A stretch of 64,000 nt of DNA from Halovenus carboxidivorans (GTDB lineage Archaea > Halobacteriota > Halobacteria > Halobacteriales > Haloarculaceae), in the NCBI RefSeq assembly GCF_009831575.1, contig NZ_WUUT01000002.1:434001-498000 (forward strand). The letters are read 5' to 3'. The notes beneath the pieces are model-generated. The model did no database searches. It worked only from the letters and a program-made list of their open reading frames with translations, and was not told the DNA's origin. A program made the position numbers and the translations under genes. Position 1 is the first letter of the stretch; each line of letters opens with the position of its first letter. This document shows positions 4,381 to 55,853 of this stretch, piece by piece.

Positions 4381-5079
4381 TCAGTTCGTCTTCGCGTCGT
4401 TGGTATCGTCTTCGGCCGGGGCGTCGACGCCCTCGGCGGCCTCGATGGCCTCGGTCTCTTTTTCCATATTGACGTGCCAGCGGTCGACTTCGCTGTCGAA
4501 GTCGGCCAGTTTGTTCGAGACGCGGATCTTCAGATCGTCGTCGTTGACGTTGACCTCGAAGACGTACTCCCCGCCCTCGCCGCGGCCGACACGCTGGAGG
4601 TTGGCACTGATGAGGTCGTTGTCGAAGTAGTACGGGGACATCTGAGTCATCACGTTCTTGTAGACGGTCCCCTCGACTTTGCGCATCGCCTTCCGGCCGG
4701 CAGAGTCCGCCGCGCGGGCGACGTAATCGATACTCTCTCCCCACTTGCCGACGGCCTCGTCGGGTTCGTCCAGGTTCTCGTAGGATTCCGCGAGTTTCTC
4801 GCCCGCCGTCTGGAGGTCTTCGTCGGGATCCTTTCCCTCCTGTTCGCCTTTGCCCTCGTTGACGCTTGCCTGCTCGGCCGTCTTCTCGTTGACATCCTCG
4901 TCGAGGCGTTCGTGTGCTTTCGGTCGCCACTCCTCGAACTCCGCGAGCGCCTCGTCGTCGACATCGTACTCCTCGGCGAGTTCCTGTAGTGCCCGCGTGA
5001 TCCGTTCGCCGTGCTCGACGGTCTCGACCCAACTGCCACGGCACTTGAACCCGGAGACACTCTCTTCAGTCTCTGCCAT
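4381..5079 (-). CDS. DUF5828 family protein
   Basis: A 232-residue soluble, highly acidic protein without a membrane segment. The N-terminus (GFKCRGSWVETVEHGERI) and the central YDVDDEALAEFEEWRPKAHERL resemble a conserved haloarchaeal family known as DUF5828. Residues 60-110 are charged and probably disordered; the C-terminal half (about 140-210) alternates in a beta-rich way. No catalytic motif is recognisable. It has its own promoter region, shared divergently with the short-chain dehydrogenase. Function is unknown. Confidence 0.7.
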   Translation of the reverse strand: MAETEESVSGFKCRGSWVETVEHGERITRALQELAEEYDVDDEALAEFEEWRPKAHERLDEDVNEKTAEQASVNEGKGEQEGKDPDEDLQTAGEKLAESYENLDEPDEAVGKWGESIDYVARAADSAGRKAMRKVEGTVYKNVMTQMSPYYFDNDLISANLQRVGRGEGGEYVFEVNVNDDDLKIRVSNKLADFDSEVDRWHVNMEKETEAIEAAEGVDAPAEDDTNDAKTN

Positions 5080-5163
5080 AGTTTGGCTGTGTTACTCTCC
5101 TTGGTTGGACACAGGGAGGAATAAACTTTCTTGCTGGACCCAAGGGGTTTTGTCCGGCGGGGC

Positions 5164-5170
5164 GGAGGTG
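5164..5170 (+). promoter_or_regulatory. Ribosome binding site deciding the SDR start
   Basis: GGAGGTG, complementary to the 16S rRNA 3' end, ends five bases before the ATG at 5176. It selects that ATG over an upstream TTG-type start at 5131 in the same frame. It is one of few clear Shine-Dalgarno sites in a window where most genes look leaderless. Confidence 0.75.
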
Positions 5171-5175
5171 GCTGT

Positions 5176-5976
5176 ATGCGCGTCGTTCTGACTGGTGCCG
5201 CAGGTGGACTCGGTCGCCGGACCGCGAGACGACTCGTCGATGCCGATCACGACGTGGTCGCTGTCGACCGCGAAGAGGACGGCCTCGCGGAACTCCCCGA
5301 TGGGATCGACTGTCGAGCGGTCGACCTCCGCGACGAGACCGCCGTCGAACGCTCGCTGTCTGCCGTCGACCCCGACGCCGTTCTCTCGGCCGTCGGCTGG
5401 TACGAACTCGGCGCGCTCGAAGACTGTCCGCCCGACTCCCTGCGAGAGCATCTGGAGGCGAATCTGCTGGCCGTTCACACGCCGCTGCACGCGCTGATGC
5501 CGGGACTCCGGCGGCGGGAGGGCCGGATCGTGATCGTCGGATCGATGGTCGGGAGCGTTCCGCTGCCGTATCACGGCGCGTACTCCGCGTCGAAGGCCGG
5601 ACTCGACGGCTACGCCGACTCACTCCGGCAGGAACTCCGTCCACACGGCGTCGACGTGTCGCTGATCGAACCGGGTCCCGTCCGCACCGGGTTCAACGAG
5701 CGCGCGACCGAGGTACTCGACCGGATCGACGACACCGCGTACGGCGATCAGTACCGCGCATTCGAGTCGTACGCGCCGGACGCGACCGATCCGGACGCCG
5801 TGGTCGACGCCATCGTGGCTGCGGCGACCGACGAGAGTCCGCGAGCACGGTATCGGGTGAGCGCGCGGGCGAACTGGCTGCCGCGACTGCGCTCGATTCT
5901 CCCGCCGGTCGTCTACGACCGACTCATCCGCTCCGGATTACCCGGCGGACTGCTCCACCGGCTCATCGAACGGTAG
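5176..5976 (+). CDS. Short-chain dehydrogenase/reductase (SDR)
   Basis: A classical SDR of 266 residues. The Rossmann motif TGAAGGLGRR starts at residue 6, NNAG is represented by SAVGWYELG, the catalytic Ser sits in IVGSMVG, and the active-site YSASKAG motif (Tyr and Lys) is near residues 137-143. The family oxidises or reduces alcohols and ketones with NAD(P). The acidic residue after the second beta strand (VAVDRE) suggests NAD rather than NADP preference. The substrate cannot be deduced. The start was chosen from the ribosome binding site at 5164-5170. Confidence 0.88.
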   Translation: MRVVLTGAAGGLGRRTARRLVDADHDVVAVDREEDGLAELPDGIDCRAVDLRDETAVERSLSAVDPDAVLSAVGWYELGALEDCPPDSLREHLEANLLAVHTPLHALMPGLRRREGRIVIVGSMVGSVPLPYHGAYSASKAGLDGYADSLRQELRPHGVDVSLIEPGPVRTGFNERATEVLDRIDDTAYGDQYRAFESYAPDATDPDAVVDAIVAAATDESPRARYRVSARANWLPRLRSILPPVVYDRLIRSGLPGGLLHRLIER

Positions 5977-5977
5977 C

Positions 5978-7405
5978 TCAGAACGCGTTTTCGACCGCAG
6001 AAGCGACAGTCCGTGCTTTTTCGGCTACCTGCTCGTCTACCTGACCGGCCTCGACGGCCGCCGTCAGTTCGTCGTCGTCGACGATTTCGGTCGTCCCGTC
6101 GGGGGTCTTGATCACGTCGACGTGGAGGTCGATGTACCGGACGGTGTTCGGGAAGATCTCCACCGGGGTACAGACGTTGACGTAGGTTCCCTTCGAGGTG
6201 CCGTCCTCGCCGCGGTAGACGGTCGGGTACCACCAGCGGTCCTCCTGGAACTTCGTCACCGCGATGTCACCCGGCTCTCGCTCGGTGCCGAGAGCGTCGT
6301 AGCTCCCGCGCGAGGAAATCTCCCGGCGGACAGTCACCTGACCGTCGCTCGTCCGATCGGTCACCTCGCCCGGGCCGAGTTCGATCAGTCGCCCGTCGGG
6401 TTTGCCGTGGCCGATGTCGATCCGGTCGCCATCCCGGGGACCGAACTGCTCGGCAACGACCTCGAAGGGGAACGCCTCGGGACCGGTCCCGGGCTCGTCA
6501 CAGATGCCCTCCGCGAAGTCCACGGCCGTACTCGCCGTCTCCGTTCCGGCCTTGATGCGGTGGTGACCGGCCATCGTCGTCGTCACGTTCCGGCGCCACT
6601 CGTCGAGCGCGAACCGACTCTCGCGGCCGAACCACACCCAGTACGTCGCCTCCGGGCGCACGTACGCTCCCGGAGCGTGGTCGGTCGCCTCGGGGGCGTC
6701 GGCCAGTTGCTCGTCGATTGTCGCCGCGTGTCCGCTCAGGTGCTCGACGACGGCCCCGAGTTCGTCCAAGTCGGCCTGGTCGGACAGCGGTGCCCAGTCG
6801 GCGGCCCAGCCCTCGGGTGGCTCCTCGGGGAGCAGATCCGCCAGTTCCGGTCCGCGGCCGTGTTGGCCGCCGCGTCGCAGCGTCGCCAGCCCACCGGCGA
6901 CGCGAAGCGAGGTGTCGAGTACCGGTCGGCCGTCGCTCCACGGGGCACGCGTCTCGATGACCTGCACCTGGAGTCGGTCGCCGTCTTCGATTCGCTCGTC
7001 GGCGTTGGAGTACGGCAGAAACCCGGTCGTCTCCCCGCCGACGGGCGCCGGGTCGTCGAGTATCGACTCCGGACCCGTGTCTTCCGGGAGACACCGGACG
7101 AGAGCGCCGCTCCCGAGGGTATCGACGACTTCACCCGCGAAGATGCCGTTTCTTGGGAGCGCACCCCGCCAGACGAAGGTGTCAAGCGCGAGATCACGGA
7201 GGGCGGAGACGACAGCCCCGACGTCGCCCGGGGCGCCGTGGACACCCACGCCCTGTCGGTCCTCGGTCGTCTCGATAGCGACCGTCGCCGGCCCCATCGA
7301 AAACTCCCGGTCGAATCGCTCCTCGATGGGTTTCGAGGGCTGGACAATCTCCTCGAAACGCTCGGTCAGTGCAGTCGAGTAGATGCCGCGAACCCGGACA
7401 GTCAT
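5978..7405 (-). CDS. fau-1: Probable ribonuclease FAU-1 (S1-like plus DUF402 domains)
   Basis: The 475-residue protein begins with the FAU-1/RNase E/G-like RNA-binding fold (MTVRVRGIYSTALTERFEE, with FAGEVVDTLGSGALVRCLP near residue 90 as an S1-like strand set). It ends with a DUF402 domain containing GTYVNVCTPVEIF and YIDLHVDVIKTPDG. Family members bind AU-rich RNA and have been linked to endonucleolytic processing of 5S rRNA precursors in archaea. Gene order on the minus strand is ZIP transporter, secG, fau-1, with a 45-base spacer after secG, so co-transcription with secG is possible. Confidence 0.82.
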   Translation of the reverse strand: MTVRVRGIYSTALTERFEEIVQPSKPIEERFDREFSMGPATVAIETTEDRQGVGVHGAPGDVGAVVSALRDLALDTFVWRGALPRNGIFAGEVVDTLGSGALVRCLPEDTGPESILDDPAPVGGETTGFLPYSNADERIEDGDRLQVQVIETRAPWSDGRPVLDTSLRVAGGLATLRRGGQHGRGPELADLLPEEPPEGWAADWAPLSDQADLDELGAVVEHLSGHAATIDEQLADAPEATDHAPGAYVRPEATYWVWFGRESRFALDEWRRNVTTTMAGHHRIKAGTETASTAVDFAEGICDEPGTGPEAFPFEVVAEQFGPRDGDRIDIGHGKPDGRLIELGPGEVTDRTSDGQVTVRREISSRGSYDALGTEREPGDIAVTKFQEDRWWYPTVYRGEDGTSKGTYVNVCTPVEIFPNTVRYIDLHVDVIKTPDGTTEIVDDDELTAAVEAGQVDEQVAEKARTVASAVENAF

Positions 7406-36192: not shown

Positions 36193-36903
36193 TCAGTGAT
36201 CCACGCCGACGAGTCTCGTCGCCGTCGCCTTCCAAGTGAGCACGATCTTGCCGCGCTCGCCGAGGGCGAGTCTGCGGGCACTGTCGGCAGTCACGAGCGC
36301 CTGGAAGACGACTCCGCCGACAGAGACGCGGGCTGTCAGCACCGTCTCGCCGCGGTCGACCTCCGTGATCGAACCGACGAGTCGGTTCCGGGCGCTCGTC
36401 GCGTCCGGCTCGGGATCACCGCTGGGGTCGAGCAGCGTGATCGAATCCGCGCCGATCCGCGCCTGGACCTCGTCGCCGACAGCGACGCCGTCGTGGAGCC
36501 CTCTGATCGCTCCGACGGCGGTGTCGACCTCGGCGAGTTCGCCCGACCGCTCCGTCACCGTCCCCCGGAGTACCGTCTCGGGGACCTGCGCCGTAGCAGT
36601 GAGTGCGGCTTGCAGTCGCTCGTAGCGGCCGAGCAACGCCTCGGCGGGTTGGGTCAACTGACTGCCGCCGCCGCCGCTGCCGCCGCGGTGGCGCTCGACC
36701 AGTTCGCCGAACGCGTCTTCGAGGGTGTCGATCCGCGAGAGCGCACGGGCGCGTGAACGGCCGAGGTTCGACGACGCTCGCGCGACCGACCCGGTCCGGT
36801 CGATTTCCCGCAGCAGTGCCGCGTCGCGGCTGTCGAACTCCACGCCGTTGCTGACCAGCGCGGCCGCCCCCTGTCCGTCCGTGGTCGGATCGCTGTCGGT
36901 CAT
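36193..36903 (-). CDS. ModE-like regulator with TOBE domains
   Basis: A 236-residue protein. The N-terminal winged helix of LysR/ModE type is at about residues 22-100 (FDSRDAALLREIDRTGSVARAS, RSRARALSRIDTLEDAFGELV, with a Gly-rich wing). Two TOBE-like segments follow (LRGTVTERSGELAEVDTA and RNRLVGSITEVDRGETVLTARV), which bind molybdate or tungstate in ModE. It is the last gene of the tupABC operon, 8 bases after tupC, so it probably senses the imported oxyanion and controls the operon, for which the palindrome at 39369 is the likely site. Confidence 0.82.
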   Translation of the reverse strand: MTDSDPTTDGQGAAALVSNGVEFDSRDAALLREIDRTGSVARASSNLGRSRARALSRIDTLEDAFGELVERHRGGSGGGGSQLTQPAEALLGRYERLQAALTATAQVPETVLRGTVTERSGELAEVDTAVGAIRGLHDGVAVGDEVQARIGADSITLLDPSGDPEPDATSARNRLVGSITEVDRGETVLTARVSVGGVVFQALVTADSARRLALGERGKIVLTWKATATRLVGVDH

Positions 36904-36911
36904 CCCGTGGT

Positions 36912-37712
36912 TCAGTACACTAGCTCCCCGTCGATAAACTTCCGGGCTCGGCGGTCGTTCGGCTCGGAGAACACCCGCTCGGTCGGTCCGACTTCGATGA
37001 GTTCGCCGCTGAGCATCACCGCGACGCGGTCGGCGACCCGTTCGGCCTGGTTCATGTCGTGGGTAGCGACAGCGACGCCGCGGCCCTCCGAACGGGCGGT
37101 CTGCATCGCCTCCTCGATGACGGCCGTGTTTCGCGGGTCGAGATCCGACGTGGGTTCGTCGAGAAGGAGATACTCCGGGTCGTACGCGAGTGCGCGGGCG
37201 AACGCGACCCGCTGTGCCTCGCCGCCGGAGAGCGAGTCGGCGGGCTGACGTTTCGAGTCGTCCAGGCCGACGACACCGAGTGCCTCCTCGACAGCGGAGA
37301 GGGTATCGCTGGAGCCGAGAGCCAGGAGTCCACGGAGCCGCTCACGCCAGCCCCGGCGGATCTGGAGGCCGTAGCTGACGTTCCGGCGGACGGTCGTATC
37401 GAAGAGGTTCGGCTCCTGAAACACCATCCCGATCCGTCGTCGGGCGGCCAGCCGCTCGGAGCGAGACATGCTCCAGACATCGGTTCCGTCCATCTCGACG
37501 GCACCGGTGTCGGGTTCGTGAAACAGCGCGAGCAGGCGGAGAAGCGTCGTCTTCCCCGTCCCGGACGGACCGATGATCGCGACGATTTCGCCCCGCTCGA
37601 CTGACAGCGTGACATCTTCGAGGACGCCCGTCCCGTCGAACCCGTGGCTGACGGCCGAGACACCGAGACTCGCTCCCGACTGGCGGCGATCAGCAACGTC
37701 GGCGGTAGTCAC
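36912..37712 (-). CDS. tupC: Tungstate/molybdate ABC transporter ATP-binding protein
   Basis: A 266-residue ABC ATPase with Walker [11 protein letters not shown]-loop [11 protein letters not shown], signature [15 protein letters not shown], Walker [14 protein letters not shown] and switch VATHDMNQ. It energises oxyanion uptake with the adjacent permease and binding protein. The start is GTG at 37712, overlapping the permease stop in GTGA, so the two are translationally coupled. The frame is open far upstream, but that extension is the permease read in another frame. Confidence 0.88.
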
Positions 37713-38470
37713 GTTCGCCCACCCCCGAGTCGGAGGACGAGTCCGTTGATGAGCAACACGAGCGCGAGCAGGACGGCTCCCAGTGCGAGAGCGGTCCTGA
37801 ACCGGCCCTGTCGCGCCTCCAGTTGGATCGCCGTCGTGAGCGTCCGGGTGACGGAGGTGCCGTCGGCCCGGGCGATGTTGCCGCCGACGATCAGCACCGA
37901 TCCGACCTCGCTGATCGCCCGACCGAGGCCGGCGAGCACGCCCGTCAGGATGCCGTATCGAGCTTCTTTGATCGTTATCAGCGCCACGTCGAGTTTGGTC
38001 CCGCCGGCGGCGTAAGCGGCGTCGCGCACCCCCTGTTCGACGCTCGTGACAGCCGCGAGGCTCACCCCCGTAATCACCGGTGCCGCGAGGATCACCTGGG
38101 AGATGATCATCGCCTGTTTGGTGAAGATGAGATCGAACTGGCCGAGCGGCCCCTGGTTCGAGACGGCAAAGAGGACGATCAGGCCGACGACGACACTCGG
38201 AAACCCCATGCCGGTGTTGATCGCGGCGACGATACCGCCCTTTCCGGGGAACTCGCTGAAACCGATCAGCATCGCAATCGGCAGGCTGATCAGCGTGCTG
38301 AGCAGCACCGCGGTGAGACTGACGTACAGCGAGACGGCGATGATGCTGCGGATATACGTCCACTCGAACGGGAGAGCGGAAGCTACGAGCGCCTCTCCGA
38401 GGAGGTGAGTCCCGCCCTCGGCCAGGAGCCAGCCGTCGATCATACCCAGTCCCAGCGCCGTCTCGACCAT
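37709..38470 (-). CDS. tupB: Tungstate/molybdate ABC transporter permease
   Basis: A 253-residue membrane subunit with about five to six helices and the ABC permease EAA-like loop ([21 protein letters not shown], then [20 protein letters not shown]). The long periplasmic-side loop and the phrase [25 protein letters not shown] match TupB permeases. ATG at 38470 is chosen because it starts 2 bases after the tupA stop. It works with TupA and TupC. Confidence 0.88.
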
Positions 38471-38472
38471 AG

Positions 38473-39378
38473 TTAGCGATCGGACCTCCATCCCTCCGGG
38501 ACGTACTGCTGGAAATCAGGCTCTTCCGACAGCGCCCGGGGGAAGAACAGCTGGTTGCCGTCGACCGTGTAGTTCTCGATGATCCGCTGGCCCTGCGGCG
38601 AGGTGAGAAAGCCGATGTACGCCATCGCCAGGTCGTAGTTCACGTTCTCGTGGACGGCCGGGTTGACCGCGATGATGCCGTAGGGGTTCGCGAGTAACTC
38701 GGGGCCGCCCTTGATCGGACCCTGGACGTGAATGTCGAGATTCGCATCGGACCGGGAGATGAACGTCCCCCGGTCCGAGAGCGTGTACGCGCCGCTGAGG
38801 TTGGCCTGATTCAGCGCTTCGCCCATCCCGGTCCCGGTTTCACTGTACCACTCCCCGCCCGGCTCGATGCCGGCTTCCTCCCAGATCGTGAGCTCTTTCG
38901 TGTGGGTCCCGGAGTTGTCTCCCCGAGAGATGAACGGCGATTCCGTCTCGGCAATTCGCCGGAAGGCCTCCGTGACACTGTCCATCCCGTTGATCCCGGC
39001 CGGGTCGGACGGAGGACCGACGACCACGAAGTCGTTGAACATGAGATCGCGGCGGTTCACGCCGTAGCCCTCGCGGAGGAACTCGTCTTCCAGCGAGCGG
39101 GCGTGGACCATCACCACGTCCGAATCGCCGTTGCGAGCCGTCTCCAGCGCCGCCCCGGTCCCCTGTGCGACCGCCTCGACCGCCGCGCCGAACTCGTCGG
39201 TGAACGCCGCGTTTACCTCGTCGAGGAGACCGGTATCGTACGTACTCGTCGTCGTCGTCAGCGTTAGTGTCTCGTCGGTGACCGCCGCCGGACCGGTCGA
39301 GTCGTCGCCGGCACAGCCGGCGACAGCGAGCGTGGCTCCGCCTGCGAGCACCCCGAGGAACTCCCGTCGTTGTATCAT
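38473..39378 (-). CDS. tupA: Tungstate/molybdate-binding lipoprotein
   Basis: A 301-residue substrate-binding protein. The Tat signal QRREFLGVL and lipobox VAGC (Cys22) anchor it outside the membrane. The mature part begins [15 protein letters not shown], a TupA hallmark (anion-binding Thr/Ser cluster), with [19 protein letters not shown] as the second oxyanion-binding segment. TupA proteins prefer tungstate, but molybdate cannot be excluded; WtpA and ModA have different signatures. It is the first gene of a four-gene operon. Its start codon lies inside the palindrome at 39369-39390. Confidence 0.9.
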
Positions 39379-39390
39379 TAACGATACAAC
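39369..39390. promoter_or_regulatory. Probable ModE-like operator over the tupA start
   Basis: Arms GTTGTATC and GATACAAC are separated by a centre with TTAA, giving 20 of 22 symmetric positions. The tupA ATG lies within it. A TATA-like AAATAC stretch lies about 35 to 40 bases upstream of the ATG on the minus strand, so the site covers the likely transcription start and fits a repressor operator. Binding by the operon's own ModE-like protein is inferred. Confidence 0.7.
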
Positions 39391-39493
39391 GGTCGTCGCC
39401 GACGTACTTCAGTATTTTCCCGGCCGGCCGAACCTAACAGCTCACTGTCTGCTCGGCCAATATTCATAACTGGGTGGCGTCTACGTCAGTCCG

Positions 39494-40903
39494 ATGGCAT
39501 CGGACGGGGAACGGCCGGGGGAGACGCCGGAACGGATCGATACCGGCCGGTTCGTCCGGTCGCTGTTCGCCGGACTCGCGACGCCCGACCAGCGACTCGT
39601 GCGGCACGCCGGCTACATCCTCTGTCAGACCGTCCACTCCAACGACCAGTTGCGCCCGGCGATCATCAACGGACTCGCGCAGTGGGCGGTCCGTCAGGAA
39701 CACCACGAGTCCGTCCTCCGGACGCTGGCGACGATCCAGAACCGCTACGACGCGACGGTCAAGCGGGCGCTGTTGAACGCGACCGACCGGCGACAGGCGG
39801 GACTGCTGTACGATCGGCTGACGACGATTCGCCCCTGGGAGGTGACCTTCGAGAGCGAGGGGGACGGGGAGGGTGAGACACTCGTCGACGTCGGCGGGTC
39901 GGGGATGGTCCGGGTCCCCCGGGAGTTTCTGGACCGCACCACCGACGCCGGGGCGGAGACGACCGACAACACGACGCCTCAGAACGCACATCTCCAGACG
40001 ACCAGCCCCGATCAGAAACGGAACTGGTCGCAGTTCTCCCGGCGCAAGCAACTCGCGGAGATGCCCCACGGCGAGGAGTTCGCCACTGTCGAGGCACAGA
40101 GCAAGTTCGACGAGTTCGAGTTTCTCGGTCCCGAAACTGAGACGAGATATAGCCACTCCGTGCGCACGCGCACGCTCGAGGGGACACGGGAGGACGTGGC
40201 TATCGTCCGCCTGTACCGCAACCAGGAAGACGGTGGGTTCGACCGCGCGCTCGGACAGCAACTCGACGACTGGGCGGACACCGAGACGCCGGGAGTCGTC
40301 GGCGTCGCTGACTGGGGGGAGTCGCCCCGACCCTGGGCAGTCACCGAGTTCACCGAGCAGACGCTGTGGGAGCGGGGCAAACTCTCCCCGGAGGAGGGAC
40401 TCAGGACGGCGCTGGATCTCACCGCCTCGCTGGCCCAACTCCACCAGCGCGACCGGATCCACGGGGGCATCGATCCACACTGCGTTCGGTACACGCCGGC
40501 GATTTTCGGCGACCGACCGCAACCGATGATCGACAACGTCGGGTTAATTCCGATCTACCGGCAGTTCGACAACCCCGCGTCGTACACGGACCCGCGCTAC
40601 GCCGCCCCCGAGTACTTCACCGAAGACCACGGCATCGTCAGCCACGCGACCGATATCTATCAGCTCGGAATGACGCTGTACAGCGCCTTTACTGGCGATC
40701 CGCCGTACGAGGGCGATCTATCGGATCTCCGTCGGCAGATCCTCCGGGACCGCCCGCTGGGGCTGAGTCCCGACAATCCCGATCTGCCGGGACCTATCGC
40801 GGAGATTCTGGCGAAAGCGACCGCTCGGGAGAAGATCGCTCGCTACGAGACCGCGACGCAGTTCCACAGCGCCGTTCGCAACGCTTGTGACGCGCTGTTG
40901 TGA
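39494..40903 (+). CDS. Pseudokinase: helical N-terminus plus kinase-fold domain
   Basis: A 469-residue soluble protein. Residues 15-110 are helical and HEAT-like (ATPDQRLVRHAGYILCQTV, RQEHHESVLRTLATIQNRYD). A linker follows, then a Ser/Thr-kinase-fold domain from about 205. APE is present at 371-373 and the F-helix Asp in HATDIYQLG at 387, but catalytic elements are lost: the VAIK Lys reads VAIVRLY, HRDLKPxN reads HGGIDPHC (323-330), and DFG reads DNVG. It is divergent from tupA, 115 bases apart. Probably a scaffold or allosteric signalling protein rather than an enzyme. Confidence 0.72.
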   Translation: MASDGERPGETPERIDTGRFVRSLFAGLATPDQRLVRHAGYILCQTVHSNDQLRPAIINGLAQWAVRQEHHESVLRTLATIQNRYDATVKRALLNATDRRQAGLLYDRLTTIRPWEVTFESEGDGEGETLVDVGGSGMVRVPREFLDRTTDAGAETTDNTTPQNAHLQTTSPDQKRNWSQFSRRKQLAEMPHGEEFATVEAQSKFDEFEFLGPETETRYSHSVRTRTLEGTREDVAIVRLYRNQEDGGFDRALGQQLDDWADTETPGVVGVADWGESPRPWAVTEFTEQTLWERGKLSPEEGLRTALDLTASLAQLHQRDRIHGGIDPHCVRYTPAIFGDRPQPMIDNVGLIPIYRQFDNPASYTDPRYAAPEYFTEDHGIVSHATDIYQLGMTLYSAFTGDPPYEGDLSDLRRQILRDRPLGLSPDNPDLPGPIAEILAKATAREKIARYETATQFHSAVRNACDALL

Positions 40904-43286: not shown

Positions 43287-45587
43287 ATGAGTACTGAAGA
43301 TCCAAGCGACACAGACGAGCCCCGACACCCCTACGAGACGGAAGACTCGTTCCACCCGATGGGCGAGCAGTGGGAAAACCGCATGCGCGAGGAACTCGAG
43401 GAGACCGACTACGACGCGGACCTCGGGATGCAGATGGCGCGGGATGCCCAGCGTCTCGTTGCGGGCGAAATATCCGAAGAGGAGTTCTACGCGGAGTACC
43501 ACGACGACGTCAAAGAGGAGTTCGAGACCGACGAGCGCCCGATTTTCGACGACCTCGAAGGCGTCGACATCGACGAGTTCGAGGACGAGTCACTGCTCGA
43601 ATCTCTGGCCGATGTCGACCTGAGCGCCGACGACGTCTCGCGGCGTGAGATGATGAACAAGATGGGCGCGGCAGGTCTGTTCCTCGGATACAGCGCCTTT
43701 GCGACCTACGACGACACCGACGACGAAGTGCCCCAGCTCGTCGACGGCGTCCGTCCGGCCGACGAAGACGAACGGAAACACCGCTGGGGAATGACCATCG
43801 ACCTCGAACGGTGTGACGGCTGTCTGGCCTGCGTGTCGGGCTGTATCAGCGAGAACGGGACTTCGACGGGTGCAAACTGGATGTACGTCTTCACATATGA
43901 AGACGAGCAGTCCGAGTCCGAGAACCCGAACCAGCTGGTCCGCCCGTGCCAGCACTGCTCGAACGCACCGTGTGCGAAGGTCTGTCCGGTCCGCGCGCGA
44001 CACACCCGAAGCAAGGACGGCATCGTCCTGACGAACTACGAGGTCTGTATCGGCTGTCGGTACTGTCAGGTCGCCTGCCCCTACGGTGTCAACTACTTCC
44101 AGTGGGGCGATCCGGACGTCGAGATGAGCCGACTCGAACACGTCGACATGACGCCGGACGAGGTCCGCGCACTCGACCCCGGCGAGGACGCCGAGACCTA
44201 CGGCGGTCACACCTACGCGGCGGAAGGCTCCGAAAGGCTGAACGCGCTCCAGGACGCCAACGACCACGTCTACGACGGGCGTGGCTGGTGGGTCGACAGC
44301 CGCCCGCCGATCGGGACGATGGGCAAGTGTACGTTCTGCCCGTCCCGACAGGACAACACGACCGGCGACAACGGAAACGAGAAGGGATCGGTCGCCTGTA
44401 TGGACGCCTGCGATCAGCAGGGCATGAGCGCGATCCACTTCGGCGACCTCGACGCCGAGGTCGGCGACGACTACGACCGCGCGGTCCGGTATCTCGAAGA
44501 GCGGCAGGCGAAAGCCGACAACCGAGACCGGACCAACAAGTTCGACGCCAACATCTACTTCTACGATACGGAAGTCAGCAGCGACACGGCCGCATCGGCC
44601 GGCGCACCGGATCTCAGCAGCGTCGACAACGGCTACTACTCGCTGCATCTCGTCCAGCGCGACGCTGGAAGCTCCGACAGCGAGTGGGGCGTCTACGACA
44701 CCGAAGAGGTTCTGGTCGCCGGGTCGGCGCTGCCGGAAGGAGACTTCAGCGGTTCGATCGGCTCCTTCGGGGGCGTCCCCTCCTCCGAACTGCAGGTGCT
44801 GAACACCCAGGGCACGACCGAGATTCCGGCGTCGGTCGTCTACGACGGCGACCTCGGCGACGGCGAAGTGCTCGAGACGACCGTCTCGCTGCGACTGGGA
44901 AGCGACGGCGAGACGCTGGCGAGCCAGAGCCTGACGGTCAACGAGGCCGGGGCCAGCCAGGATCTCACCTTCACTGTCAACGGTGGCAGCATCGAGAGCC
45001 CCGAGGGATCGTACGTCCTGTACCTGGCGGTCGAACCGGCCAACGGCGAGGTCAGCGCGGCCGCCCACGAGGGCGTCTACCTGACTGCGGGCGAGCCGAA
45101 CGTCGATCTTCCGTCCGCGCCGTACGGCTCGGTGACCGGACAGGAAGGGTCGCTGTCGAACGTGCCGAACATCCTGCACAAAGGCGGTAGCTCGGAGATC
45201 GACGCTACCATCTCGTACCCGTCCTCCGAGCCGCTGGACGCGCAGATCGGTCTCGTGCTCTACAACGGCGAGACGGAGGAAGTCGTCGCACAGACCGAGT
45301 ACTCCTTCGAGCAGCAGTACACGTCCAACACCGCCTGGGACTCCGGGCTATCGACGTTCAAGCTCCTCGAGGATCTCGGAACCAGTCCGAACATCACCTA
45401 CATCGGCAACGAGCCGGGCCCGAACGCCGAGCAGGTCAGTGCCGAGGAGATGCCGGTCGCCTACGCCGATATCAGCAACAAGTGGGACGTTCAGGTCCTC
45501 GACAAGCGGCTCGAACGACTCAAGTACGGCGCAAACGTCCCCGAGGGCGCAACCGTCGGTGGCGGAGGCGGCGGAGGTGATCACTAA
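43287..45587 (+). CDS. Fe-S subunit of an NrfD-type membrane oxidoreductase
   Basis: A 766-residue protein of the DmsB/NrfC/PsrB type with four [4Fe-4S] motifs: CDGCLACVSGC (176-186), CQHCSNAPCAKVC (221-233), CIGCRYCQVAC (254-264), and CTFC (348-351) with CMDAC (371-375). Residues 1-115 form an acidic domain, like the 4Fe-4S ferredoxin N-terminal family. A Tat-like motif SRREMMNKMGAAGLFLGYSAFA begins only at residue 118, so it is internal. A beta-rich domain of roughly 260 residues (about 430-690) interrupts the C-terminal segment, which resumes at NITYIGNEPGPNAE. It forms a complex with the NrfD protein 2 bases downstream. Confidence 0.85.
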   Translation: MSTEDPSDTDEPRHPYETEDSFHPMGEQWENRMREELEETDYDADLGMQMARDAQRLVAGEISEEEFYAEYHDDVKEEFETDERPIFDDLEGVDIDEFEDESLLESLADVDLSADDVSRREMMNKMGAAGLFLGYSAFATYDDTDDEVPQLVDGVRPADEDERKHRWGMTIDLERCDGCLACVSGCISENGTSTGANWMYVFTYEDEQSESENPNQLVRPCQHCSNAPCAKVCPVRARHTRSKDGIVLTNYEVCIGCRYCQVACPYGVNYFQWGDPDVEMSRLEHVDMTPDEVRALDPGEDAETYGGHTYAAEGSERLNALQDANDHVYDGRGWWVDSRPPIGTMGKCTFCPSRQDNTTGDNGNEKGSVACMDACDQQGMSAIHFGDLDAEVGDDYDRAVRYLEERQAKADNRDRTNKFDANIYFYDTEVSSDTAASAGAPDLSSVDNGYYSLHLVQRDAGSSDSEWGVYDTEEVLVAGSALPEGDFSGSIGSFGGVPSSELQVLNTQGTTEIPASVVYDGDLGDGEVLETTVSLRLGSDGETLASQSLTVNEAGASQDLTFTVNGGSIESPEGSYVLYLAVEPANGEVSAAAHEGVYLTAGEPNVDLPSAPYGSVTGQEGSLSNVPNILHKGGSSEIDATISYPSSEPLDAQIGLVLYNGETEEVVAQTEYSFEQQYTSNTAWDSGLSTFKLLEDLGTSPNITYIGNEPGPNAEQVSAEEMPVAYADISNKWDVQVLDKRLERLKYGANVPEGATVGGGGGGGDH

Positions 45588-53903: not shown

Positions 53904-55853
53904 ATGGCTGACTCCGCCGCCGGTTTCGCACGCGACGCGCCGGGCGTGGCCGAGGCAGCGAGCGTGCGCGAAGGCGAGTACATCCACGTCTACGAGGGCG
54001 CTCTGAGGGGCCACGACGAGCCGGTTCGGATTCTGAGTCTGGCCCCGGAGATCGAAACTGAGGCCGCAGCCGAGGCCTTCAGCCGGACGACCAACGAGTG
54101 GAAAAACATCAACACGCAGCCGAACGTGGTCTCTGTGTACGACCGCGGTGACGAGCCGCGACCGTGGATCGCCGTGAGCGACGTTCGGGGAGAGACGCTC
54201 GATACGATGCAGTCGGAACTCTCTGTGACGGCCGCAGGTACCGTCATCTCCGACGTGACCGAAGCGCTGCGTAGTGCCGCCCTCTATAATATCGCTCACT
54301 CGGACCTCAGGCCCAGTCAGATCTGGGTCGTCGATACCGAGAGCGGAGCATCCGGACTGGTAGGCGGCTGGGGGATCGAACGAGCAGTCCGTACCGCGGC
54401 CGGCGACACACTCGCAACGCCGTATACCGCCCCCGAACTGCTCGAAACGCGCGCAGCCGACGAGCGAGCAGATGTCTACGGTCTCGGCGCGATTGCGTAT
54501 TACCTGCTCACCGGACAGTCGCCGGTCGCTGAGACCGACGGCGAAGGTCTCACACCGCCCAGTGAAATCGACGGGTCGGTCCCTTCGGAGGTCGATTCGG
54601 TCGTACTGGGGGCGCTGGCGGCGGACCCCGCGGATCGCCCGGAATCGGTGTACTCCGTCGGGCGGGCCGTCACACAGGCGCTCACGGCCGAGACCCGGCA
54701 GACGGCGATCACTGACACGCGTTCAGAACAGCGGGGAGAGGAGGCGACGAAATCGGGCAGTCCCGAGGAAACGGGAGACTCCGGGCTCTCGCGTCGCGGG
54801 GTGCTGGGAGGGCTCGGCGTGGCCGCGGTCGGTCTCGGGGGTGGCTGGATGGCGACACAGACGCTCGCGGACAGTGACACACCGACGACGACCACTGCAC
54901 CGGATACGTCGACACGGGAGCCTGCCAGCAGCAACACCACCGAGTCCGCGCCGGACGAACCCAGCGATTCGGGACCGCTGTCGGGAGAGATCCGAATCGC
55001 CAGCAGCGACCCCACGTACGGGGTTGTTGAGACGATCAGCGACGCGTTTCGCGAGGAGTACACGGAGGTCGGATTCGAGTTGACGCGAACCGGAGCCACA
55101 GCCGGCTTTGCGGAGTATTTCGTCTCCGGTGACAGTCAGATCGCCGGTTCGGGTCGGCCGATCACACCACCGGAGGTCGAGCGGTGTCGGAACAACGGCT
55201 TCGAGCCGGTCGAGATACCGGTCGCACGCGGCGGACTCGTCACCGTCGTGCACAACGAAAACGACTGGGTGGGGTCGATGTCGGTCGAACGCCTGCGGCA
55301 GATCTGGTCCCCGGACACCGCCCCCACGACGTGGAGCGATGTCGACAGCTCCTGGCCGGACGTTCCGATCCATCTCTACGGGTTGGGACCATCGACGGAG
55401 GTGTTCGATGTCTTCACCGAGACGGTCCTCGGGGAGCGAGGGCGGATCCGCGACGACTTCGAGGAGACGGAGCGTAGCGAAACCATCGTTCAGGCTGTCA
55501 GCCAGGATAGACGGGCGCTCGCCTATCTCCCGTTTGTCGAGTACACGAACAACCGGGGGCAGTTCACGGCGCTGGCGCTCCGCGAACCCGGGGCCGAGCC
55601 GGTCGAACCAACTATCGAACACATCCACGAGGGGCGTTATCCACTGATCCGACCGTTGTTCTGTTACGTGAATATGAACGACCTCCAGCGACAGGCGCAT
55701 CTCCAGGAGTTTCTTCGGGTTTGCATCACACAGTCGGGGACTGACCGCATTCCAGAGCAGACCGGATACGCCCCGGTTCCGGCCTCGGTCACCGAGCAGA
55801 ACCGGGCAACCCTCGACGCCGCGACGGAGGGAGAATACAGGTGGCGTCAGTAA
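53904..55853 (+). CDS. Pseudokinase, membrane anchor and PstS-like binding domain fusion
   Basis: A 649-residue protein. Residues 1-255 form a kinase-like domain: APE at 176-178 and F-helix region DVYGLGAIAYYLLTG are intact, and HSDLRPSQ (132-139) keeps the HRD Asp. No glycine loop or VAIK Lys is seen (VRILSLAP), and DFG reads GGWG. Twin Arg at 297-298 and a hydrophobic stretch 299-320 follow, Tat-like, then a Thr/Ser-rich linker, and from about 360 a PstS-type phosphate-binding domain (GEIRIASSDPTYGVVE, GSGRPIT, GLGPSTEVFDVF). This arrangement suggests a receptor with an inside pseudokinase and an outside anion sensor. Confidence 0.75.
   Translation: MADSAAGFARDAPGVAEAASVREGEYIHVYEGALRGHDEPVRILSLAPEIETEAAAEAFSRTTNEWKNINTQPNVVSVYDRGDEPRPWIAVSDVRGETLDTMQSELSVTAAGTVISDVTEALRSAALYNIAHSDLRPSQIWVVDTESGASGLVGGWGIERAVRTAAGDTLATPYTAPELLETRAADERADVYGLGAIAYYLLTGQSPVAETDGEGLTPPSEIDGSVPSEVDSVVLGALAADPADRPESVYSVGRAVTQALTAETRQTAITDTRSEQRGEEATKSGSPEETGDSGLSRRGVLGGLGVAAVGLGGGWMATQTLADSDTPTTTTAPDTSTREPASSNTTESAPDEPSDSGPLSGEIRIASSDPTYGVVETISDAFREEYTEVGFELTRTGATAGFAEYFVSGDSQIAGSGRPITPPEVERCRNNGFEPVEIPVARGGLVTVVHNENDWVGSMSVERLRQIWSPDTAPTTWSDVDSSWPDVPIHLYGLGPSTEVFDVFTETVLGERGRIRDDFEETERSETIVQAVSQDRRALAYLPFVEYTNNRGQFTALALREPGAEPVEPTIEHIHEGRYPLIRPLFCYVNMNDLQRQAHLQEFLRVCITQSGTDRIPEQTGYAPVPASVTEQNRATLDAATEGEYRWRQ

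Follow-up and report, generated by a model that had tools for sequence, protein, structure and literature searches.

The PASTA-type Hanks receptor kinases (PknB, Stk1, and StkP) are built from an N-terminal cytoplasmic kinase fold, one membrane span, and an outer sensor. The ActPs1 pseudokinases of actinobacteria join a pseudokinase to a C-terminal PQQ-type module (PMC12599244), and the PstS phosphate-binding proteins (4jwo, 4omb, and 9jwy) form a family defined by its own fold. Tat signals usually lie at free N-termini, and internal ones have been described where Sec inserts the preceding helices of the protein (PMC5449189), as in the dual Sec-Tat proteins of Streptomyces (Rieske Sco2149, Sco3746), where an internal twin-arginine signal exports the domain that follows it; the signal of Sco2149 is used only once Sec has inserted two helices (PMC5449189). 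More generally, the helix of Tat-dependent membrane proteins is located at either end of the chain and occasionally inside it (PMC10924467).

A gene for a 649-amino-acid protein, found at 53904-55853 on the plus strand of the window (the whole 64,000-nucleotide stretch of Halovenus carboxidivorans DNA that was analyzed), resembles each of these systems and departs from each. It shares the overall layout of the PASTA-type kinases, with PknB being closest both by kinase profile and by the model of the kinase half, but it lacks the catalytic residues, its outer domain has the PstS rather than the PASTA fold, and its anchor is of the Tat type rather than the Sec type. The ActPs1 proteins are the nearest described parallel, since several haloarchaeal relatives of our protein also combine a pseudokinase with a PQQ-type module; they are, however, bacterial, solute-binding modules and internal Tat anchors go unmentioned in PMC12599244, and the likeness is one of domain layout. 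Unlike the PstS proteins, whose fold it shares, it has lost the phosphate contacts, is not a free lipoprotein, and has no adjoining transporter genes for phosphate. Finally, where Sec-inserted helices precede the internal signal of Sco2149 and Sco3746, here a soluble cytoplasmic domain does so. The parts of the gene are as follows.

53904..55853, plus strand: whole gene for a pseudokinase, an internal Tat-type anchor, and a PstS-derived domain (649 aa; open reading frame and Pfam)
53904..54698, plus strand: predicted cytoplasmic pseudokinase domain, residues 1-265 (Pfam, AlphaFold, PknB match, and motifs)
54699..54788, plus strand: polar, predicted cytoplasmic linker, residues 266-295 (sequence; no in-frame ATG or GTG at residues 256-299)
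54789..54863, plus strand: putative internal Tat-type signal anchor, S296-T320, SRRGVLGGLGVAAVGLGGGWMATQT, with no lipobox Cys (similar element in 25 other kinase-like proteins)
54864..54965, plus strand: Thr/Ser/Pro-rich spacer, residues 321-354, predicted outside (sequence)
54966..55850, plus strand: PstS-derived solute-binding domain, residues 355-649, with rewritten phosphate loops (Pfam, AlphaFold, 4jwo match, and lost contacts)

The kinase/twin-Arg anchor/PstS architecture is real and far above chance. Pfam and AlphaFold agree on a kinase fold and a PstS fold within one protein, with a twin-Arg anchor between them, as the initial annotation had read it from the sequence; the profile search and structure prediction that it proposed for the two halves recovered both folds, the AlphaFold models being built on alignments of relatives. 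The annotation also knew of no characterized protein with this domain order, and our literature search, with most subscription journals outside its coverage, likewise found no description of a kinase-PstS fusion or of a haloarchaeal receptor with an internal Tat signal, nor any paper on an archaeal family combining a kinase with an internal RR anchor.

The N-terminal half belongs to the Hanks-type kinase fold: the Pfam Pkinase profile matches residues 23-214 (42 bits; cut-off, 31.7), residues 1-285 are modeled as a bilobal kinase (pLDDT 95.4), and the best PDB match of the model is Mycobacterium tuberculosis PknB (5u94; Z 26.8, rmsd 2.6, 242 residues). The motif positions can be located as β3 EPVRILSL (39-46), αC F59-W66, AHSDLRPSQI (131-140), LVGGWG (152-157), and APE (176-178). 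Most of what catalysis requires of them is gone: the glycine loop is shortened and reads EGEYI, the β3 Lys site is occupied by Leu44 or Leu46, depending on the alignment register, the αC Glu is replaced by T62, the loop Lys and Asn by R136 and Q139, and the DFG Asp by G155 (GGWG). The HRD Asp (D134), the APE motif (A176-P177-E178), and D190 are kept, as are those residues that all members, active or inactive, share (W66, P87, W88, W156, P177, A237, and R245). A kept fold with lost catalytic residues bears out the pseudokinase reading of the initial annotation, which had correctly noted the HRD-type Asp in HSDLRPSQ, GGWG in place of DFG, the APE, and the missing glycine loop and VAIK Lys; it overlooked the αC Glu and the relatives, which mostly read D[DE]WG at the DFG region, so that even by the standard of the family GGWG counts as a loss. 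Replacement of the β3 Lys by Arg (R42, invariant in the close clade) was considered and rejected, because alignment to active members puts Leu at the Lys site.

The haloarchaeal kinase family includes motif-complete members (IGxGGNADV, VAVK, FxEAETW, HLDLKPEN, and DWG; for instance L165, L144, and L178) and also degenerate ones. In the organism's own genome (98% complete; contigs C1, C2, C3, and C5) the search turned up no motif-complete Hanks-type kinase: the family members seen all carry losses, and the Pkinase matches are our protein, other degenerate members, and RIO-like and UbiB-like proteins, the last two named by eye. This fits a non-catalytic action of the kinase half. Since the HRD Asp is kept, some residual activity is possible; that the half works as an enzyme, by slow phosphotransfer or another nucleotide transfer through this Asp, nevertheless appears extremely improbable, despite the retention of D134 and D190, as it has none of the residues that hold ATP and metal in position (the Lys, αC Glu, Asn, and DFG Asp).

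The outer half is PstS-derived, as the initial annotation had supposed. PBP_like_2 matches residues 355-605 (88.8 bits; cut-off, 27), residues 345-649 are modeled with the PstS fold (pLDDT 88.3), and the best PDB match of the model is 4jwo (Z 31.2 over 278 residues; 31% identity), with 4omb giving Z 27.3; identity to free haloarchaeal PstS reaches 49%. Its score against the PstS subfamily profile TIGR02136 is 175.3 bits, below the cut-off of 206.6. Where haloarchaeal PstS proteins read GSST, G[ST]xGGF, DxN[NG][AS]SR, and SGT (a comparison of 50 rows, some from the same gene and one partly masked), this domain reads SSDP (367-370), TGATAGF (396-402), QIAGSGR (412-418), and PSTEV (496-500). The changes concentrate there: 16 of 22 conserved PstS positions in the ligand loops are altered versus 13 of 61 elsewhere (Fisher p 4e-5), and the most that any free PstS shows in the loops is 2 of 22. 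As the loops were delimited after the alignment was viewed, the independent test is the list of seven phosphate-contact residues in the SAR11 PstS structure 9JWY (PMC12421899), which we mapped onto the domain through the profile alignment. Six of the seven turned out to be replaced, with S368 alone kept, while in 26 free haloarchaeal PstS proteins six of the sites never vary and the one at Thr61 is either Ser or Thr.

With the contacts replaced and the ligand loops rewritten, phosphate is probably not what the outer domain senses. The initial annotation took the protein for an anion receptor in which a PstS domain binds its ligand outside and the pseudokinase reads its state inside; in the phosphate sense this proposal found no support. 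For a phosphate or oxyanion receptor speak the best PDB matches of the outer fold, which are phosphate-binding proteins, and the PBP_like_2 score over its cut-off, but given the lost contacts, the subfamily score (175 vs 206.6 bits), and the absence of pst genes from the neighborhood we regard it as highly improbable. The genes beside ours encode a MatE transporter and a GNAT-like protein (by eye), not the pst or other oxyanion genes whose proximity had been suggested as a check, and the genome holds another, canonical PstS-type protein (L040/L227).

Between the two halves lies R297-R298, followed by a hydrophobic stretch with a mean hydropathy of 1.53 over 18 residues. RRGVL conforms to the Tat rule of RR-x-hydrophobic-hydrophobic before a moderately hydrophobic stretch (motif definition, PMC10924467), and motif and hydropathy support the single-pass Tat-type anchor of the initial annotation, with a predicted topology of one domain on each side. 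The N-terminus of the signal is not free, as 296 residues precede the twin Arg. The same element recurs in about 26 haloarchaeal proteins (not all of them independent), in which a kinase-like domain is followed by an internal [STGN]RR anchor and then by a secreted module; shuffled linkers lead one to expect RR by chance in about 2 of 26, versus its presence in all 26. The hydropathy of the 18-residue core averages 1.64 in the 26 kinase-first RR anchors, which is close to the 1.39 of N-terminal Tat signals in free PstS and well away from the 2.69 of four anchors that lack RR.

These data bear directly on whether the segment could be an ordinary signal anchor inserted by Sec, with the twin Arg supplying merely positive charge on the inside. 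The RR would indeed satisfy the positive-inside rule as well, and a free N-terminus is usual for Tat signals (PMC5449189). The residue before RR is, however, S, T, G, or N, not a mixture of K and R, the hydropathy falls in the Tat range and below that of sister non-RR anchors, and the textbook Tat consensus SRRSFLK occurs in the anchors of four relatives (L194 and L212-L214). In one strongly supported kinase clade, moreover, the members with CarboxypepD_reg repeats (L170, L173, and L180) have non-RR, more hydrophobic anchors, while their sisters with SBP_bac_1 or copper (plastocyanin) modules have SRRSFLK or SRRAVLK. Such switching of the anchor type with the outer module inside one clade is what real Tat use of the RR anchors predicts, and we consider a Sec anchor unlikely.

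The fate of the anchor after insertion may be read from its other end. Its tail, GGWMATQTL, resembles that of other kinase anchors (GWLATQQLG and VVATQLLG), and it has no lipobox, which 42 of 44 free haloarchaeal PstS proteins carry in their Tat signals. It thus seems that a PstS body was grafted behind an existing kinase-anchor unit; on the same two features, the idea that the fusion brought in the Tat signal of PstS itself was rejected. In haloarchaea most lipoproteins are exported via Tat, and lipobox mutants remain cell-associated (PMC2945643), which makes an uncleaved Tat signal plausible as an anchor. Cleavage behind the anchor, releasing the outer part so that two working proteins result, seems very unlikely: a weak signal-peptidase-like site (TLA-DS) is present, but no AxA site is conserved among the kinase anchors (by eye), and the protein has no lipobox. 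A separately started Tat-PstS protein is also unlikely, because residues 256-299 contain no in-frame ATG or GTG.

TatC genes are present. Three TatC matches lie at G000:C1:173182-176203 (L235 and L236); a single 752-aa frame contains two of them, making a double TatC. Outside the kinase family, a 766-aa iron-sulfur protein of the window (43287-45587, plus strand; PsrB/DmsB-like by eye) has a twin-Arg hydrophobic stretch, SRREMMNKMGAAGLFLGYSA, at about residue 117, a further internal Tat-type signal. We know of no experiment in which Tat accepts a signal after some 296 residues without a preceding transmembrane helix.

By its composition our protein is a member of the haloarchaeal family of a kinase, an internal RR anchor, and an outer module, whose Pfam-defined modules comprise the PQQ propeller, the plastocyanin-type copper domain, Peripla_BP_6, SBP_bac_5, SBP_bac_1/8, Laminin_G_3, and PstS. 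The relatives come from many Halobacteria genomes; their frames run from stop to stop around kinase matches, so that their start sites are not fixed. The protein falls in a 16-member kinase clade (SH-aLRT 99 in a quick tree) with PQQ, copper, Peripla_BP_6, SBP_bac_5, or PstS modules. The lack of precedent claimed for the domain order is therefore true of the PstS combination, a singleton in our searches, and not of the general class, as at least six other outer modules occur behind the same kinase-anchor unit. In single genomes (L158, L159, L177, L178, L181, L183, and L190), several kinase-family genes cluster within 10-40 kb, some as divergent pairs. The window itself contains another degenerate kinase-like ORF (39494-40903, plus strand), divergent from an ABC transporter cluster (36193-40903 together) with a ModE-like regulator, an ABC ATPase, and a permease (by eye) and a PBP_like_2 Tat-lipoprotein (38473-39378, minus strand). 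Conserved gene neighbors were found within close relatives only, and none is shared with our locus.

Recurrence of the kinase-PstS fusion in other haloarchaea, which the initial annotation had raised, was not observed: no second case was found in 392 sampled genomes of the order and family sets of 146, 170, 125, and 28 genomes, which overlap and were mostly searched by kinase profile with only strong matches listed, or in 72,556 plasmids. Among the candidates, the long frames beside PstS matches (L044-L050) proved to be free PstS, and L053 proved to be a tandem PstS, a 679-aa protein (4470-6506, minus strand) with two PstS domains, the second with intact phosphate motifs. A scan of genome contigs with the kinase half returned generic bacterial kinases only. 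Since the combination is a singleton within these searches, constraint on the whole protein is not measurable.

Such a singleton, with catalytic and ligand sites both degenerate and GC3 below that of its neighbors (0.77 vs 0.82-0.90; coding-like, somewhat atypical), might also be a decaying relic, a two-domain fusion on its way to becoming a pseudogene. The 649-codon frame is nonetheless intact, both halves keep their structural residues and have confident fold predictions, the losses of the outer half center on the ligand loops, and losses of the same kind occur across a diverse family of related pseudokinases, all of which makes decay quite unlikely.

On balance we lean toward a Tat-inserted, non-catalytic, receptor-like single-pass protein with a retargeted sensor, a member of a modular haloarchaeal family. 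From the folds, the lost catalytic and phosphate-contact residues, the anchor type, and the module swapping, all of them computed, we infer its topology, Tat dependence, non-cleavage, and signaling by shape change. The kinase-like domain would remain in the cytoplasm while the Tat translocase reads the twin-Arg segment, which would be left uncleaved as the membrane anchor, placing the folded PstS-derived domain outside the cell. Instead of phosphorylating, the kinase-like domain would most likely offer a cytoplasmic partner a docking site or a switch. The outer domain, with its clam-shell fold kept and its phosphate site lost, would most likely respond to a different ligand or to a partner protein.

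The gene is an unusual, doubly repurposed member of a family in which outer modules are swapped behind internal Tat-type anchors, and this family is the larger finding. It is rather probable that in haloarchaea Tat inserts a class of kinases and pseudokinases of receptor-like layout via an internal signal behind a folded cytoplasmic domain, so that the kinase remains inside and a pre-folded sensor (a copper protein, PQQ propeller, or solute-binding protein) is exported, both enzyme and sensor having been repurposed in the 649-aa member. Haloarchaeal kinase signaling has been little studied. If the proposal is true, haloarchaea have a modular receptor-like family in which many kinase domains are apparently dead, and Tat predictors limited to N-termini would be expected to miss proteins with internal anchors. 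Tat could then assemble N-in/C-out receptors that carry one large folded domain on either face of the membrane and have no Sec-inserted helix ahead of the signal, a route not described in the literature that we found.
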